From the IMG/VR virus record IMGVR_UViG_3300023094_000028, positions 1-30,046 of that record: DNA of 30,046 bases, one strand, 5' to 3'. Positions 2,695 through 19,805 of the stretch are shown piece after piece. The stretch comes from a virus. Positions within the stretch are counted from its first letter, which is position 1, and each line of letters opens with the position of its first letter. Both the position numbers and the translations under genes were made by a program. The notes beneath the pieces are model-generated. The model did not search any database, was not told the DNA's origin, and was given only the letters and a program-made list of their open reading frames with translations.

Positions 2695-3401
2695 CACGCC
2701 TGACCCCCGGCGCGGGCGGCCACCTGATCCTTGGCCCATGCTTCGAACACGGCCTTATCGCCTGTGCAGCACGACCACGCAGGCTTGTGGCGCTTCGAAA
2801 TGGATGGACCACCTCTCGGCCATTCCGTTTTTGTGTCGATCCGCAGGGATGCCGGACCATGAACCTGGCCGGGAAATTCGAACGCGACACTGGCTTGCTC
2901 GATCGCCCGCCGACCATTGCGGTACGCCGAGTAGGCATGGCCCCCATCGAGTAGGACCGCGTCAGGAAACTTGCGCTTGACGAACTTCCGCAGCCGCCGA
3001 ATCCAGCGCGTTTCGATGTGCTTGGCCTCAGCGCGCTCGAGATTGTCACGGGCCTCGCAACGCGGCGTGCAATAGACCATCGTGTGTTGGAAGCCCTTCA
3101 CGTCGGATAGCTCCAGATCGCGCTCCCATAGGAAGTCGCTGTCGATCCGGTGCCCGCAGCCCGAACATTCAAAGTGCCAACCGTGTTCGATCATCAGCGA
3201 TGCGGGCACCATCTTGGTCTCCGCGCAATGATCGGCCCACGCAGCGCGCCGGGCACGGACATAATCGAATTCACCGCCGGCATACTCGTTGGCGCCTTCT
3301 CGACGGGCGACGATGGCATGCTTTGCGAATATGATCCCGCCGGTGCCCTCGTCTTCTTCAGTTACGGCGAACGCTTTTTCCGCCAGTTCAAGCATCTGCA
3401 T
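2694..3401 (-). CDS. Unknown phage protein with zinc-ribbon-like cysteines
   Basis: A 235-residue protein of unknown function. A cysteine cluster near residues 77-112 (CSGCGH, then CTPRCEARDN) suggests a zinc ribbon. A basic helical segment follows (IRRLRKFVKRKFP), and the C-terminus contains SISKRHKPAWSCCTGDKAVFEAW. AGGAA lies six bases before the ATG at 3401, which I prefer to the GTG one codon earlier. It overlaps the upstream gene by 14 bases and is coupled to the HD-domain gene. Confidence 0.8.
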   Translation of the reverse strand: MQMLELAEKAFAVTEEDEGTGGIIFAKHAIVARREGANEYAGGEFDYVRARRAAWADHCAETKMVPASLMIEHGWHFECSGCGHRIDSDFLWERDLELSDVKGFQHTMVYCTPRCEARDNLERAEAKHIETRWIRRLRKFVKRKFPDAVLLDGGHAYSAYRNGRRAIEQASVAFEFPGQVHGPASLRIDTKTEWPRGGPSISKRHKPAWSCCTGDKAVFEAWAKDQVAARAGGQA

Positions 3402-9900: not shown

Positions 9901-10274
9901 GCCTCCCCTCCGGTGGCGCGGGCGATTGCTTGCTCGACCTTCAACATTACGCAGTCGATTTCGGCGTGCGAGGCGCCCATCCTCGCGAAACGCCGGCGAC
10001 TTTCGCCAAGCGTTTCGTGCGCTTCCTGCAGCGCGCTCAGAAGATCAGGCGCGGCGGCGATCAGGCGGGCGTTGGCCCACATCTCCTTGTTGCTCCGGGC
10101 AGATTGCCAATACTCCTGCCAAAAACCGTCCCAGTGAACGATCGCGCAATCCAAATCTTCTGGAGCCTGAATGCTGGGCACTGCGATAGGACGATCGCCG
10201 CTGTCATCTACACATATCCACCAAGGCCCCGGCGTATGCCCCGCCGTAGCCGTTCCTGCTGTGGGGGCGGTCAC
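9897..10274 (-). CDS. TPGPW-type phage protein, GTG start
   Basis: A 125-residue protein with the recurring phage pattern HTPGPWWI near residue 13 and NARLIAAAPDLLSALQEAHETL in the middle, followed by a C-terminal helix. Proteins of this pattern are frequent in temperate phage early regions, and I know of no function. The start is GTG at 10274, overlapping the preceding TGA as GTGA. Confidence 0.8.
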   Translation of the reverse strand: MTAPTAGTATAGHTPGPWWICVDDSGDRPIAVPSIQAPEDLDCAIVHWDGFWQEYWQSARSNKEMWANARLIAAAPDLLSALQEAHETLGESRRRFARMGASHAEIDCVMLKVEQAIARATGGEA

Positions 10275-10528
10275 AGGGACGCCTCACGCATGTGAACACC
10301 TGCGAACACGCGGTGCGAGATCTTCTTTTCGAGATATGCGCGATCGTAGGAGCCGAGCCTGCGCAGACGGTTATAGATCAGGCGGTCTTCAGCAAGGACT
10401 GCACGGCAGCCGTCTTCTAGCGAAAGCGAACTGTCGACCAACTTGATAGCCACACGAGAGAAGAACAGCCTCTCTTGCTCGGTCAGTTCGACCGGGCTGC
10501 ACTCTATCTGGGTTGCGGCTTCCGCCAT
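10271..10528 (-). CDS. First gene of the leftward operon, unknown
   Basis: An 85-residue protein, the first product of the leftward operon and so a candidate for an early regulator such as an antiterminator; this is only positional. It is helical and charged (LTEQERLFFSRVAIKLVDSS, DRLIYNRLRRLGSYDRAYLE). The ATG at 10528 has AAGGAGG five bases upstream, better than the GTG at 10543, which lies in front of that site. The PL promoter described below lies about 35 bases upstream. Confidence 0.78.
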   Translation of the reverse strand: MAEAATQIECSPVELTEQERLFFSRVAIKLVDSSLSLEDGCRAVLAEDRLIYNRLRRLGSYDRAYLEKKISHRVFAGVHMREASL

Positions 10529-10562: not shown

Positions 10563-10590
10563 TATGTACCTAGGCCGGGTACGCTGTCAA
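10563..10590 (-). promoter_or_regulatory. Leftward early promoter PL
   Basis: On the minus strand TTGACA (10590-10585) is followed after 16 bases by TACATA (10568-10563). The -35 box is consensus. The operator at 10566-10582 fills the spacer and touches the -10 box, so bound repressor would block polymerase. Predicted start near 10556, leaving a short leader before the ATG at 10528. Confidence 0.72.
10566..10582. promoter_or_regulatory. Operator OL1 (GTACC-N7-GGTAC)
   Basis: A 17-bp site, GTACCTAGGCCGGGTAC, with perfect five-base inverted arms. The same architecture occurs at 11275-11291 and, with one mismatch each, at 10598 and 11241. It lies in the spacer of PL. The likely ligand is the CI-like repressor and/or the cro-like protein. 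Confidence 0.8.
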
Positions 10591-10597
10591 CAAGAAT

Positions 10598-10614
10598 GTA
10601 CCTAGCAGAGGAAC
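10598..10614. promoter_or_regulatory. Operator OL2, one arm imperfect
   Basis: GTACCTAGCAGAGGAAC has arm GTACC, a 7-base spacer and GGAAC (one mismatch to GGTAC). Its centre is 32 bases from OL1, about three helical turns, which would suit cooperative binding of two repressor dimers on one face of the DNA. Confidence 0.68.
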
Positions 10615-10635
10615 ATTTATTTTGGCCTTAGATCG

Positions 10636-11205
10636 TCACCGAGGGACGATCGCCTTGACCACGGCGGCCCAGCGAAGGCGCACGTCTTCAATCATAGGCG
10701 CGTTGAGCGATGCCAGGTGATAGTGGTATGGCTTCGAGCCACGCAGCACGCGCTTCACAAGCATGCTCTCGTCAGCGTCGAGCTGAACCACGCATACCTT
10801 GTTCATCACGGCGTTCTCATCGACTGTCGCTTCAGCCGTATAGACAATGTGCCAACCCTCTTCCGCGAGAGGTAGCATGCTGTCGCCCTTCACCTCGACG
10901 GCGAGCAAATCCCCTGCTGTCATAGGAGGGCGATCGATCGTATCGCCCGCGTCAAGCATGTCATCGTAGGCATAGACACGCTGCCCGGCGCCAACATAAC
11001 CGACGACAGAAACCTGCGGGCCGCTCCATAATTGCGCGGGCGAAACACCAAGGAACGGAGCGAGCCGCTTAGCCCACGCTTCCGACATCGGGAGCTCGCC
11101 AGTCTCCAGTTTCACAATCGTCGAGCGGCCAGAGCCGGCCTTTTCAGCAAGAGCGGTTTGCGAAAGTCCAGATTTCTTGCGGGCGTCACGAATCGAAATA
11201 GGCAT
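10636..11205 (-). CDS. CI-type phage repressor, HTH plus S24 self-cleavage domain
   Basis: This 189-residue repressor has an XRE helix-turn-helix (about 4-55; SGLSQTALAEKAGSGRSTIVKLE) and a LexA/S24 domain. In the latter, Ser109 in VKGDSMLP and Lys151 in MLVKRVLRG are 42 residues apart, the expected catalytic pair. A73-G74 in GYVGAGQ is a plausible cleavage site, so induction by RecA after DNA damage is expected. The ATG at 11205 starts just before the HTH. Its ribosome site is weak, and an in-frame ATG at 11259 inside the operator region is the alternative. Operators lie on both sides. Confidence 0.94.
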   Translation of the reverse strand: MPISIRDARKKSGLSQTALAEKAGSGRSTIVKLETGELPMSEAWAKRLAPFLGVSPAQLWSGPQVSVVGYVGAGQRVYAYDDMLDAGDTIDRPPMTAGDLLAVEVKGDSMLPLAEEGWHIVYTAEATVDENAVMNKVCVVQLDADESMLVKRVLRGSKPYHYHLASLNAPMIEDVRLRWAAVVKAIVPR

Positions 11206-11240
11206 GCCATCACTTCGCGCCGCCGGCCGGTACAGGTCGA

Positions 11241-11257
11241 GGACCGGGGCTAGGTAC
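11241..11257. promoter_or_regulatory. Operator OR2, one arm imperfect
   Basis: GGACCGGGGCTAGGTAC is a 17-bp site with GGACC (one mismatch) and GGTAC arms. Its centre is 34 bases from OR1. It lies upstream of the PR -35 box and in the leader of the repressor gene, where it could control repressor expression. Confidence 0.65.
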
Positions 11258-11265
11258 ATTTTCGC

Positions 11266-11294
11266 TTGCTGATCGTACCTGTGTTGGGTACATT
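11266..11294 (+). promoter_or_regulatory. Rightward early promoter PR
   Basis: TTGCTG (11266-11271), a 17-base spacer and TACATT (11289-11294). OR1 occupies the spacer, as OL1 does in PL. The predicted transcription start falls at about 11300-11302, on or next to the cro-like ATG at 11302, leaving no room for a ribosome binding site. Confidence 0.68.
11275..11291. promoter_or_regulatory. Operator OR1 (GTACC-N7-GGTAC)
   Basis: GTACCTGTGTTGGGTAC has perfect five-base arms and the same 7-base spacing as OL1. It lies between the -35 and -10 boxes of PR, so binding would silence the rightward operon. Confidence 0.8.
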
Positions 11295-11301
11295 CTGACG
11301 A

Positions 11302-11538
11302 ATGAGCAGCACGCCACTCCGGGTCTACCTCGACGAAACGAGCCAGACCGCCGAAGCCTTCGCCTCCGTTCATGGAATGAGCGCTTGGAGTGTTCGCCAT
11401 TGGGCCAGGGGCGACAAGATGCCGAGCATCCCTGCTCAACGTGCGATGGAAGATGCGAGCGCCGGAAGAATTACGCCGCAAAAGTGGCTCGAATGGAGCC
11501 TTACTCGCGCGCGCCCTGCCCAGCAGGCAGCAGCATAA
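11302..11538 (+). CDS. Cro-like HTH regulator, probably leaderless mRNA
   Basis: A 78-residue protein opposite the repressor, first in the rightward operon. LRVYLDETSQTAEAFASVHG, SAWSVRHWARGDKMPS and ITPQKWLEW form a helix-turn-helix of the YdaS/Cro-like type, in which the second helix carries the WSVRHW recognition segment. It would bind the same operators and favour lytic growth (inferred from position). The ATG follows the PR -10 box by only seven bases, so the transcript probably begins at the start codon. Confidence 0.82.
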   Translation: MSSTPLRVYLDETSQTAEAFASVHGMSAWSVRHWARGDKMPSIPAQRAMEDASAGRITPQKWLEWSLTRARPAQQAAA

Positions 11539-14352: not shown

Positions 14353-15287
14353 TGAAATTCGCCGGAGCGGTTTGGGCCGCGCTCCGAGGAAAGCGAAGCA
14401 CGGCCCGTCAACAAACCGATGGAGATATTACGATGGCTACGCAGCTTTTTCAACCGCCCCACGGCAGCCCGGCATGGTTCCACACCACGGCGCAGAAGGC
14501 GGCAGTTTCGGGTGTGATCTCGGAGCGTATCGTCCTCACGCCAGAATTGGCGAAGGCTATGCTGAACAACAACCCCGACAATCGGCTGATCCGTGTCGGC
14601 AACCTCAAGAAGCTTGAGGACGATATTCGTGCTGGGCGCTGGACGTTCAACGGAGAGCCTATCCTCATTTCGAATGAGGGCATGGTCAACGATGGCCAGC
14701 ATCGGTGCACGGCAGTAATCGAGACTAACATTCCGATCGAGACCATGATCGTGTTCGGTCTCGAGCGGGCGTCGCGCATCACCGTCGATCAGGGCGGCGC
14801 TAAGGCGGCATGCGATTATCTGTCGATGGAGGGGGTCCCCAACTCGACAAATGTCGCCGCGATCGGTCGCTTGTTGATTGCTTACGAGCAGTCCGACGGG
14901 AAGAACTTTTCCGGCTCAAGCTATATTTCCTCCGGCGAGATCGTCGCGCGCTATTACAAGGATCCTGCCCTCGGGCGCAGCGCGCTGTTTGCGGCGAGCC
15001 TGCATGTGCACTCGAAGAAGCTCGGCCCTCCGTCGGTGTTCGGCTTCTGCCATTGCTTGTTCTCGCGGATCGATCCGGCGTCAGCAGACACATTCCTTCG
15101 CCAGGTTGGTGTCGGCGAAAACATCAAAAAGAGCGACCCCGCGTTTGCTGTTCGGGAAGGCCTGTTCCGCGAACGCCTGGCACGTGACGAGAAGGCGCAT
15201 ATCATCATGCGTGGCTGGAACGCGTTCCGCCGCAAGCGCTCGCTGACGCTGACCAAGGTCATCGGCAACCTGCCGGCGCTGATCTAA
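14352..15287 (+). CDS. ParB/Srx-like fold phage protein with DGQHR motif
   Basis: A 311-residue protein whose core contains NLKKLEDDIRAGRW, GEPILISNEGMVNDGQHR (R118) and IVFGLERASRITVDQGGAKA. The DGQHR box and neighbouring segments resemble ParB/sulfiredoxin-fold proteins common in phages. A long helical C-terminal region follows. The ATG at 14352 overlaps the previous stop (TGATG); ATG 14433, with GGAG nine bases upstream, is an equally good start giving 284 residues. It sits directly before a second ParB-like gene. Confidence 0.78.
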   Translation: MKFAGAVWAALRGKRSTARQQTDGDITMATQLFQPPHGSPAWFHTTAQKAAVSGVISERIVLTPELAKAMLNNNPDNRLIRVGNLKKLEDDIRAGRWTFNGEPILISNEGMVNDGQHRCTAVIETNIPIETMIVFGLERASRITVDQGGAKAACDYLSMEGVPNSTNVAAIGRLLIAYEQSDGKNFSGSSYISSGEIVARYYKDPALGRSALFAASLHVHSKKLGPPSVFGFCHCLFSRIDPASADTFLRQVGVGENIKKSDPAFAVREGLFRERLARDEKAHIIMRGWNAFRRKRSLTLTKVIGNLPALI

Positions 15288-15976
15288 TGCAGACGATCAG
15301 TCTCAGGACCGAGATTGTGGAAGTTATCGAGCGCCACCGTGCGCTCGATAATGCTGCATGTGATCGGCTCGCCGCGTCGATGCGGGAGATCGGGCTTTGT
15401 CAGCCCATTTCTATCCGCATCGCCGACATGATGGTTATCGATGGAAAGGAGGTTGAAGGGGTCCCCGTGCTGGTTGCGGGGCGTCATCGGCTTGAGGCTG
15501 CGAAGCGCCTTGGCTGGTCGCATATCGAATGCATCGAGGTCGATGACGATGCAGTGTCTGCCGAGATGTGGGAGATCGCCGAGAACCTGCATCGGCTGGA
15601 TCTGACCAAGGATCAGCGGGACAAGCATATTCGGCGGTATGCTGAATTGTTGGACGGGCGACGCGCCAAAGAAATTCAGGCGCCGCAAGATGCTGCACCT
15701 GAAATCGGCTATCGTAAGCCGCCGCCGCAGACAAAGGGCGTTGCGCGTCAAGTGGCGGAGGAGACAGGTTTGAGCGTCGATACGGTGCGTCGTGCGCTCA
15801 ATCCTAAGCCTGTGCTCATCAAGTCAGTCGTCGAGGCGGAAAGCGACGAAGAGGCCATTCTTCGCGAAGCGAACGCGATAGTCGCCGCGTGGAACCGTGC
15901 GCGCCAAGCCGCGCGTGATCTCGCCCTCGAACAGATCGACGCGCCCGTGTTCGACAGGAGCCGTTCGGCTGCATGA
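15287..15976 (+). CDS. ParB-like protein with N-terminal ParB domain and HTH
   Basis: A 229-residue protein with a ParB N-terminal fold: LDNAACDRLAASMREIGLCQPISIR, the VLVAGRHRLEAAKRLGW box and IAENLHRLDLTKDQR box. A KorB-type HTH follows (GVARQVAEETGLSVDTVRRAL), then a short basic end. No ParA is visible in the window, so plasmid-style partition is not shown; transcription control is equally possible. The start overlaps the preceding TAA (TAATG). It is coupled to the replication gene. Confidence 0.85.
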   Translation: MQTISLRTEIVEVIERHRALDNAACDRLAASMREIGLCQPISIRIADMMVIDGKEVEGVPVLVAGRHRLEAAKRLGWSHIECIEVDDDAVSAEMWEIAENLHRLDLTKDQRDKHIRRYAELLDGRRAKEIQAPQDAAPEIGYRKPPPQTKGVARQVAEETGLSVDTVRRALNPKPVLIKSVVEAESDEEAILREANAIVAAWNRARQAARDLALEQIDAPVFDRSRSAA

Positions 15977-16689
15977 TCCGCCCTGAAGTTCTTGATGCCC
16001 TTCTGGCTGCCGGCGCCACCGCCGAGATGATCGTTGCCGCGGTCAAGGCTGACCTGCGCCAGGAGGACGTTAAGCTTCAGGAGAAGCGCGAGAAGGATGC
16101 CGCAAGGCAACGTAAGTCACGAATGTCACGGAATGTCACAGTGACTCCGCGTGACAAGTGTGACGTCCTTCCCCCCAATGAGTATATATCTAACCCCCCA
16201 TCCCAAACCTCATCCCCTGACGGGGATGATCCCCTTTCGCTGGATTTAGCTGATCGGGTTGTTGAGGCCTGGAACGGCCAGATCACCGGAACGCCCCTGC
16301 CGACAGCCCGGAAGCTGAACCCAGATCGCCGGAAGCACCTGCGCTGCCGTGTCGCCGAGCATGGCGAGGATGCGGTTTTCGTGGCGGTATCGAACATGAT
16401 CCAGTCGGATTTTCACTCCGGGCGGAGCGGGAAATGGACCGAGGGCAATCTTGGTTGGTTGCTGAAAAGCCCGGAGAATTTCCTGAAAATGCTGGAGCGC
16501 AAACCGGTCGATGTCCCGCAGTCGTCGGGGAAGCAGTGGACCGCTGAGGAGCGTGCCGCGCATCTCGCCAAGCTTGAACGGTTCGGCCTCGACAGGCCCG
16601 ATCCGCCCCAGCCGCCGCCCGATCGCAAGACGACGGCTTACGGCGCTGGAATTGGCCAACTGGTTGATCGGATTGGAATTGCACGATGA
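15973..16689 (+). CDS. Phage replication protein with embedded origin-like repeats
   Basis: A 238-residue protein. The N-terminal helix (MIRPEVLDALLAAGATAEMI) and basic segment (AARQRKSRMSRNVTV) precede a proline-rich linker. The C-terminal domain (VVEAWNGQITGTPLP, EHGEDAVFVAVSNMIQSDFHSG, WLLKSPENFLKMLE) is shared by phage replication initiators or helicase loaders. It follows the ParB-like genes and ends the replication module. The GTCAC repeats at 16116-16164 lie inside it, encoding residues 48-64, like lambda ori inside O. The exact role is inferred. Confidence 0.78.
   Translation: MIRPEVLDALLAAGATAEMIVAAVKADLRQEDVKLQEKREKDAARQRKSRMSRNVTVTPRDKCDVLPPNEYISNPPSQTSSPDGDDPLSLDLADRVVEAWNGQITGTPLPTARKLNPDRRKHLRCRVAEHGEDAVFVAVSNMIQSDFHSGRSGKWTEGNLGWLLKSPENFLKMLERKPVDVPQSSGKQWTAEERAAHLAKLERFGLDRPDPPQPPPDRKTTAYGAGIGQLVDRIGIAR
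16116..16164. other. Candidate phage replication origin: six GTCAC pentamers in mirror spacing
   Basis: GTCAC occurs at 16116, 16125 and 16135, and its complement GTGAC at 16141, 16151 and 16160. Start-to-start steps are 9, 10, 6, 10, 9, so the array is an exact dyad centred on base 16140. An AT-rich tract (AGTATATATCTAA, about 16181-16193) follows, as expected of an unwinding element. The location inside the replication gene parallels lambda ori. Confidence 0.72.
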
Positions 16690-19048: not shown

Positions 19049-19269
19049 CCTACGCAACGGAAATCCAGCAGGCCTTGGGCATCCCCGACGACGGCAAGGA
19101 GCGCGTGCGGTTCGAGATGTTCGATATGGGCCGCACGATCGGTGTGCTGGCGCGCTATCCCGATGATCGCCAATTTGCGCTGAGGTTGCCGTTTGCCGAT
19201 GACTGGCGAGACGAGGCCATCGCTGAGATCGCAGCGCGCCGGAGCGCGTATTTGGCGGAGGCGGCATGA
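19045..19269 (+). CDS. Small unknown protein after terminase
   Basis: A 74-residue protein starting MTYATEIQQALGIPDDGKER and continuing with beta strands (VRFEMFDMGRTIGVLARYPDD) and a C-terminal helix. ATG 19045 overlaps the terminase stop (ATGA), and its stop overlaps the HNH gene. It resembles no family I know. An in-frame ATG at 19036 inside terL is less likely. Confidence 0.7.
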   Translation: MTYATEIQQALGIPDDGKERVRFEMFDMGRTIGVLARYPDDRQFALRLPFADDWRDEAIAEIAARRSAYLAEAA

Positions 19270-19805
19270 CTAACCTCGATGAGGCTTTAATCGAAATGCT
19301 TCGTCGGGCACGACCCATTGAGGCGTCTCCCGAGCTTCCTATGGCTCCCGATGCCTTCCGAATGATGCGTGAGAATGCGGGCTACAACCAAGCCGAGGCC
19401 GGCGCAGCGATGGGCGTTTCCCGCGTTACGATAGTTCGATGGGAAACCGGAAAGATGCCAATCACGCGACGCGCCGCTGCCGGGCTTAATGGTCTCTACA
19501 TGGTGAAAAGTCGTGAAGTGCGTGCCCACGAAAGGTTCGTCTCTCCCGTGGTTGTCACGTCTGCAACTGGCTCGATGCGCAGGAGATCGATCCCAGCCGC
19601 GATAAAGCGAGCGGTTATCGCGAGAGATGGCGGTGTCTGCGTATATTGCGGCGCGAAGCCTGATCGCATCTTTCTCGATCACAGAATGCCCGTCTCACGG
19701 GGTGGGGAGCATAGCGAGGCAAATCTTTGCGTGTCGTGCCACCGCTGCAACAGCGCGAAGCGCACCAGGACAGCAGAGGAGTTCATTCGTTATGCAGCCC
19801 GCTGA
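19266..19805 (+). CDS. XRE helix-turn-helix fused to HNH endonuclease
   Basis: A 179-residue protein. Residues about 26-79 are an XRE HTH (MMRENAGYNQAEAGAAMGVSRVTIVRWETG). After a basic linker, residues 120-172 form an HNH nuclease with zinc pair C125/C128 (CVYCG), D138-H139 (LDHRMPVSRGG), N153 and C158/C161 followed by N162 and K165. HNH proteins near terminase often help packaging, but a DNA-recognising HTH in front would suit a homing or regulatory nuclease. It is placed between terL and the portal gene. Confidence 0.87.
   Translation: MTNLDEALIEMLRRARPIEASPELPMAPDAFRMMRENAGYNQAEAGAAMGVSRVTIVRWETGKMPITRRAAAGLNGLYMVKSREVRAHERFVSPVVVTSATGSMRRRSIPAAIKRAVIARDGGVCVYCGAKPDRIFLDHRMPVSRGGEHSEANLCVSCHRCNSAKRTRTAEEFIRYAAR

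Follow-up and report, generated by a model that had tools for sequence, protein, structure and literature searches.

The window, a 30,046-base viral record analyzed over its whole length, very probably (a probability of about 0.88 by our estimate) contains the immunity region of a temperate podovirus-like phage, with a lambda-type switch whose operator sites are read by a CI-like S24 repressor. It also carries an integrase, an epsilon15-like terminase, and a portal gene, which is why we regard the phage as temperate and podovirus-like. The sites, their fixed positions, the gene order, the cleavage-type residues of the repressor, and the link between its recognition helix and the operator motif are established by comparison with the sequences of related phages.

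Probable operator sites and regulatory genes in the window

The operator consensus is a 17-bp inverted repeat, GTACC-N7-GGTAC. At a cutoff of one mismatch, four sites occur in the 30-kb window, all in the repressor region. None of them has a strand assignment. Two OL sites match those of OR and lie opposite them, across the repressor gene: OL1 (10566-10582, GTACC-TAGGCCG-GGTAC) is perfect, and OL2 (10598-10614, GTACC-TAGCAGA-GGAAC), 32 bp away, has one mismatch. Upstream of the repressor gene, the perfect OR1 (11275-11291, GTACC-TGTGTTG-GGTAC) starts 86 nt ahead of the repressor ATG, and OR2 (11241-11257, GGACC-GGGGCTA-GGTAC), with one mismatch, begins 52 nt before it, giving an OR1-OR2 spacing of 34 bp, or ~3 helical turns. 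The first-pass annotation had already given these four positions, the division into two perfect and two one-mismatch sites, and the spacings of 32 and 34 bases within the pairs, all of which were reproduced. It had also named an equal frequency of the motif elsewhere as evidence against operators; the window has zero further sites, and the 4 sites observed compare with 0.12 ± 0.33 expected from dinucleotide shuffles of the window. Its description of two sites on each side holds on the left, where no third OL site was detected, and falls short on the right, where it had overlooked a degenerate OR3 (11217-11233, no strand, GCGCC-GCCGGCC-GGTAC) with two mismatches, 24 bp from OR2. OR thus contains three related dyads, of which OR1 and OR2 are clear and OR3 is the third-best offset in an alignment of 12 phages, making the right operator more lambda-like than the annotation claimed.

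The CI-type repressor gene (10636-11205, minus strand) lies between the two operators. The mechanical list of open reading frames extends it to 10636-11481; the ATG at 11205 was taken as the true start because it is kept in every relative and fits the helix-turn-helix domain. The protein matches HTH_31, HTH_3, and Peptidase_S24 in Pfam and phrog_4 in PHROG, and its residues Ala73-Gly74, Ser109, and Lys151 are invariant among repressor relatives, so that it has the XRE helix-turn-helix and the S24 domain with Ala-Gly, Ser, and Lys expected of a CI-like repressor. Its helix-turn-helix is related by sequence to that of P22 C2, and its structural model (pLDDT 83) has lambda CI (3bdn) as the top match among solved structures. 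Divergently oriented across OR is a gene for a small helix-turn-helix protein of 78 amino acids (11302-11538, plus strand), which has no Pfam or PHROG match of its own. Among the 11 members of its family, 6 match Pfam P22_Cro and 7 match HTH_3, all weakly, and YdaS is also matched weakly. The model has five helices (pLDDT 91), and its nearest folds, XRE/HigA-type proteins, all fall short of E < 0.001. Hence, we call this protein Cro-like on the basis of its position, weak profile matches, and fold. Downstream of the putative leftward promoter pL, the first gene (10271-10528, minus strand) is an open reading frame with a Shine-Dalgarno-like GGAGG upstream and no match in Pfam or PHROG.

Conservation and spacing of the sites in related phages

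The comparison covers 12 distinct contigs, that is, the window and 11 other viral contigs found by a repressor search, a Cro search, and an OR-pair scan of the viral collection; the contigs are related to one another and hence are not independent trials. Repressor identity to the window ranges from 81% down to 38% among the 11 relatives. A repressor protein search that made no use of the motif yielded five contigs at ~80% identity, and all five have OR1 at -86 and OR2 at -52 from the ATG. The OL pair is spaced by 32 bp in four of them; in the fifth (L005/L020), one OL site is perfect and the other is a base shorter, with starts 32 bp apart. Searching with the Cro-like protein alone recovered three further phages with the site set, whose repressors are only 40 to 44% identical. 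Another three contigs (L021, L025, and L028) were added by the motif scan; their repressors were later found by protein search as well, with a query alignment that already included L021 and L028.

In all 12 phages, the 86 nt upstream of the repressor ATG align gap free with no change in length, OR1 starts 86 nt and OR2 starts 52 nt before the ATG, and OR1 is perfect. The left half of OR2 is likewise perfect in every phage, and its right half, on the side of the presumed repressor promoter pRM, is imperfect in every phage (GGTTC in 10 of 12). Across the 412 kb of the 12 contigs, the immunity region accounts for 44 sites with at most one mismatch, and 4 are located elsewhere. The OR3 offset, at -28, comes next after those of OR1 and OR2, with 66% consensus match and 63% symmetric pairs, compared to 51% and 22% for the next offset. 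OR3 is a clean dyad of altered sequence, GTCCC-N7-GGGAC, in three phages (L029, L031, and L026); some of the conservation at this offset may be due to pRM. In one contig, L007/L024 (IMGVR_UViG_2630968440_000002), the repressor frame is shifted near codon 81 and the operators are intact.

On the left side, the inner OL site lies 32, 33, 34 or, once, 42 bp from the outer site in 11 phages, corresponding to 3.05 to 4.0 turns, near whole numbers of turns. A scan for the pL pattern returned 14 contigs not met before, 13 of which have no repressor relative and probably represent chance matches; the other, L072, is a partial but genuine relative with an OL pair 42 bp apart. Some phages have OL directly after the repressor gene and others have it beyond small extra genes, and the OL-OR distance varies widely, from ~0.66 to 1.7 kb, so nothing in it supports a phased loop. 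Variable small open reading frames, several in the orientation of the repressor, fill the slot between the repressor stop and OL in L020, L021, L026, L029, and L031; this slot is where rexAB sits in lambda, and the window has no such frames.

Do the paired sites load cooperatively? An appreciable but minor possibility is that the sites bind the repressor as independent dimers, with neither cooperativity between neighbors nor looping between OL and OR, as in phage 933W. At 34 bp, the OR1-OR2 spacing is a full turn above the ~24 bp of lambda, which would suit independent binding, and the lambdoid 933W repressor is reported apparently not to bind adjacent sites cooperatively (PMC3317979). However, on both sides of the repressor gene, the two sites of a pair remain on about the same helix face, at 32 to 34 bp or at 42 bp, and a conserved imperfect OR2 would make most sense if it were filled with the help of OR1. 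We favor a switch in which the second site of each pair contributes to repressor loading.

A recognition segment that tracks the operator sequence

The segment SGRST[IV]xKLE in the recognition helix is invariant among repressors that have the sites, at overall identities down to 38%, and repressors only 38 to 44% identical overall retain both the segment and the operator. The S24-type loci newly found by a search with the combined alignment (L042, L044 to L054, and L056 to L066) have no site with one mismatch or fewer in the stretch examined, and their recognition helices differ from the SGRST type wherever they are readable. GTACC sites are also absent from five named phage loci and one plasmid locus. 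These loci are related, and no weight is placed on a Fisher test of them. The first-pass annotation had proposed to look in relatives for conserved sites with covarying helix-turn-helix residues. Together with the identical site positions in relatives found by protein search, the link between helix and motif supports that annotation's reading of the region as a lambda-like OL/OR. The same search added the independent hit L055, in which an HTH-only protein with the segment SGRSTIVKLE and no S24 domain (2857-3297) is accompanied by one perfect and one one-mismatch GTACC site; no Cro relative was detected there at E ≤ 1e-3. Self-cleavage would be no route to induction for a switch built on this protein, which lacks S24.

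Similar S24 repressors with the segment VSRSQ[FY]IKLE occur in prophages represented by L046 and by Mesorhizobium phage vB_MseS-P1 (L081), but their recognition residues differ, as does the outer base of the operator in L046. In L046, whose helix (VSRSQFIKLE) is intermediate, a TTACC-N7-GGTAA site is followed 24 bp on by a poorer copy, a single case that is suggestive of covariation between helix and operator. The Mesorhizobium phage yielded no matching site.

It is improbable that the Cro-like protein or another early regulator alone binds the sites while the S24 repressor reads something else. The Cro-like protein does co-occur with the sites in all 12 contigs, which would favor this alternative, but in distant repressors, and in the HTH-only L055 with no Cro relative at the above threshold, the motif goes with the repressor recognition segment, and no other repeated inverted motif in the OR of L018, L028, and L029 scores as well as GTACC-N7-GGTAC. 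Still less probable is that the sites belong to a host regulator, such as alphaproteobacterial LexA, whose boxes have the form of a direct repeat, GTTC-N7-GTTC. Some imperfect halves of the phage sites do read GTTC or GAAC, but we rejected the LexA reading since the motif is an inverted repeat, is confined to DNA flanking the repressor gene of these phages, and follows a phage protein. Single perfect matches do occur in other contigs of the viral collection (L067 to L080), but chance palindromes were rejected as an almost negligible explanation given 4 sites against 0.12 expected and identical positions across 12 phages. Recognition of the sites by the CI-like S24 repressor best fits these comparisons.

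A genome scan for repressor relatives found only proteins 27 to 42% identical, none of them close, and the exact OR pattern has no match in 385 genomes of the class to which the Salipiger genome belongs. Named phages have repressor relatives only 30 to 43% identical, and no relative of the Cro-like protein was found in them. In the viral contigs L030 (3558-3721), L032 (6861-7075), and L034 (8141-8230), GTACC-N7-GGTAC palindromes occur in clusters, and their inner bases are different but symmetric, e.g., GTACCGCCTGGCGGTAC; these contigs contain no related repressor, and the clusters were set aside.

Putative promoters, proposed switch, and comparison with known systems

The hexamers of the putative promoters pL and pR were picked out by eye from the window sequence. 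In pL (10563-10590, minus strand), the -35 element TTGACA (10590-10585) is separated from the -10-like TACATA (10568-10563) by a 16-bp spacer with OL1; in pR (11266-11294, plus strand), a 17-bp spacer with OR1 separates the -35-like TTGCTG (11266-11271) from the -10-like TACATT (11289-11294). A generic sigma-70 promoter scan of the window flagged neither, both being weak by consensus, so the assignment rests on conservation among relatives. The proposal of the first-pass annotation that the perfect sites fill the spacers of divergent early promoters is suggested by hexamer-like elements conserved in relatives, none of which the generic scan flagged. TTGAC precedes the outer OL site in 11 of 11 phages, in a TTGAC...OL1...TACA layout with an A/T-rich -10-like stretch after the site, the TTG of the pR -35 is kept in 12 of 12, and GCAAG between OR1 and OR2, which is the pR -35 on the other strand, is nearly invariant in the 12-phage alignment. 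The presumed pRM (11214-11240, minus strand) has a -35-like TCGAC (11240-11236) that OR2 directly abuts, and OR3 fills its spacer in the same TNGAC-NN-site layout as OL1 in pL. In the 12 phages, T-N-GA after OR2 is nearly invariant, as is GG.ACA at -16 to -11; the window has a poor pRM -10, and several relatives have one that is GACAAT- or TACAAT-like. The cro ATG lies only ~7 to 11 nt past the -10-like element of pR in all 12 phages (11289-11304 in the window and equivalents), and the repressor ATG is comparably near the presumed pRM -10, suggesting that the mRNAs of both switch genes are probably leaderless.

Drawing on what is known of these protein families, we infer repressor binding and cooperativity, activation of pRM, induction by the SOS response, and any looping between OL and OR. 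The CI-like S24 repressor would read GTACC-N7-GGTAC as a dimer, and the Cro-like protein presumably reads it too. Repressor on OR1 in the pR spacer would turn off cro and the rightward early genes, and repressor on OL1 in the pL spacer would turn off the leftward early genes, while OL2 and OR2, ~3 helical turns away on the same DNA face, most likely help cooperative loading. From OR2, next to the pRM -35, the repressor could stimulate its own promoter, and at high concentration it, or Cro, would shut pRM off through the weak OR3 in the pRM spacer. DNA damage would lead to RecA-stimulated self-cleavage at Ala73-Gly74 and prophage induction. Any OL-OR loop in the window would span ~0.7 kb.

The region resembles that of lambda in having the repressor gene between OL and OR, 17-bp dyads, a divergent cro, three OR sites with OR1 over the putative pR, OR2 next to the presumed pRM, and a weak OR3, and a predicted cleavable S24-type repressor, with lambda CI as its best fold match. 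It differs in its GTACC half-site, in the two OL sites seen, in the likely leaderless cro mRNA, in the OR1-OR2 spacing (34 versus ~24 bp), and in the shorter OL-OR distance. The latter is ~0.7 kb here, compared to 2.3 kb in lambda (PMC5880393). P22 C2/Cro and 434 CI/Cro are further relatives, in that the repressor helix-turn-helix is related to P22 C2 and Cro relatives weakly match P22_Cro. The P22 and 434 operator sequences differ from the GTACC sites, and those of Sinorhizobium phage 16-3, ACAA-N4/6-TTGT, are unrelated to them. Phage 16-3 offers a parallel as a temperate phage of an alphaproteobacterium with a characterized C repressor/immunity system and OL/OR (PMC10460002).

The layout is therefore a known kind of switch, and the operator sequence it recognizes is one for which we found no earlier description: no paper in the open-access literature searched pairs the GTACC motif with a prophage repressor, and the subscription literature could still hold one. 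The novelty lies in the GTACC half-site, in its link to the recognition segment, and in an OR1-OR2 spacing conserved at 34 bp; the pairing of OR1 and OR2 at ~3 helical turns and the apparently leaderless cro and repressor mRNAs are distinctive. Only tentatively would we propose a separate and widespread switch class, with dimers paired at three (or four) turns rather than about two, a constitutively asymmetric OR2, leaderless repressor and cro mRNAs, and an 86-nt unit conserved across diverged phages. The apparent rule that SGRST[IV]xKLE reads GTACC, in at least 12 phages, would help in annotating immunity regions and in predicting cross-immunity. OR1 and OR2, held at a fixed 34 bp, provide a test of how cooperative repressor binding accommodates an additional helical turn, and genetic work in a GC-rich host would gain a convenient tool in an orthogonal CI-like repressor.

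Multiple dyads are ordinary in S24 phage switches, as the three-site operators upstream of two other repressors illustrate: ATACG-N4-CGTAT in L045, spaced by 32 and 23 bp, and TGTCAA...TTGACA in L051, spaced by 42 and 43 bp. Elsewhere in the window, an XRE helix-turn-helix fused to an HNH endonuclease domain is encoded between the terminase and portal genes (19266-19805), and the rightward early region has a ParB-like gene adjoining one that resembles a replication initiation gene (15287-16689).
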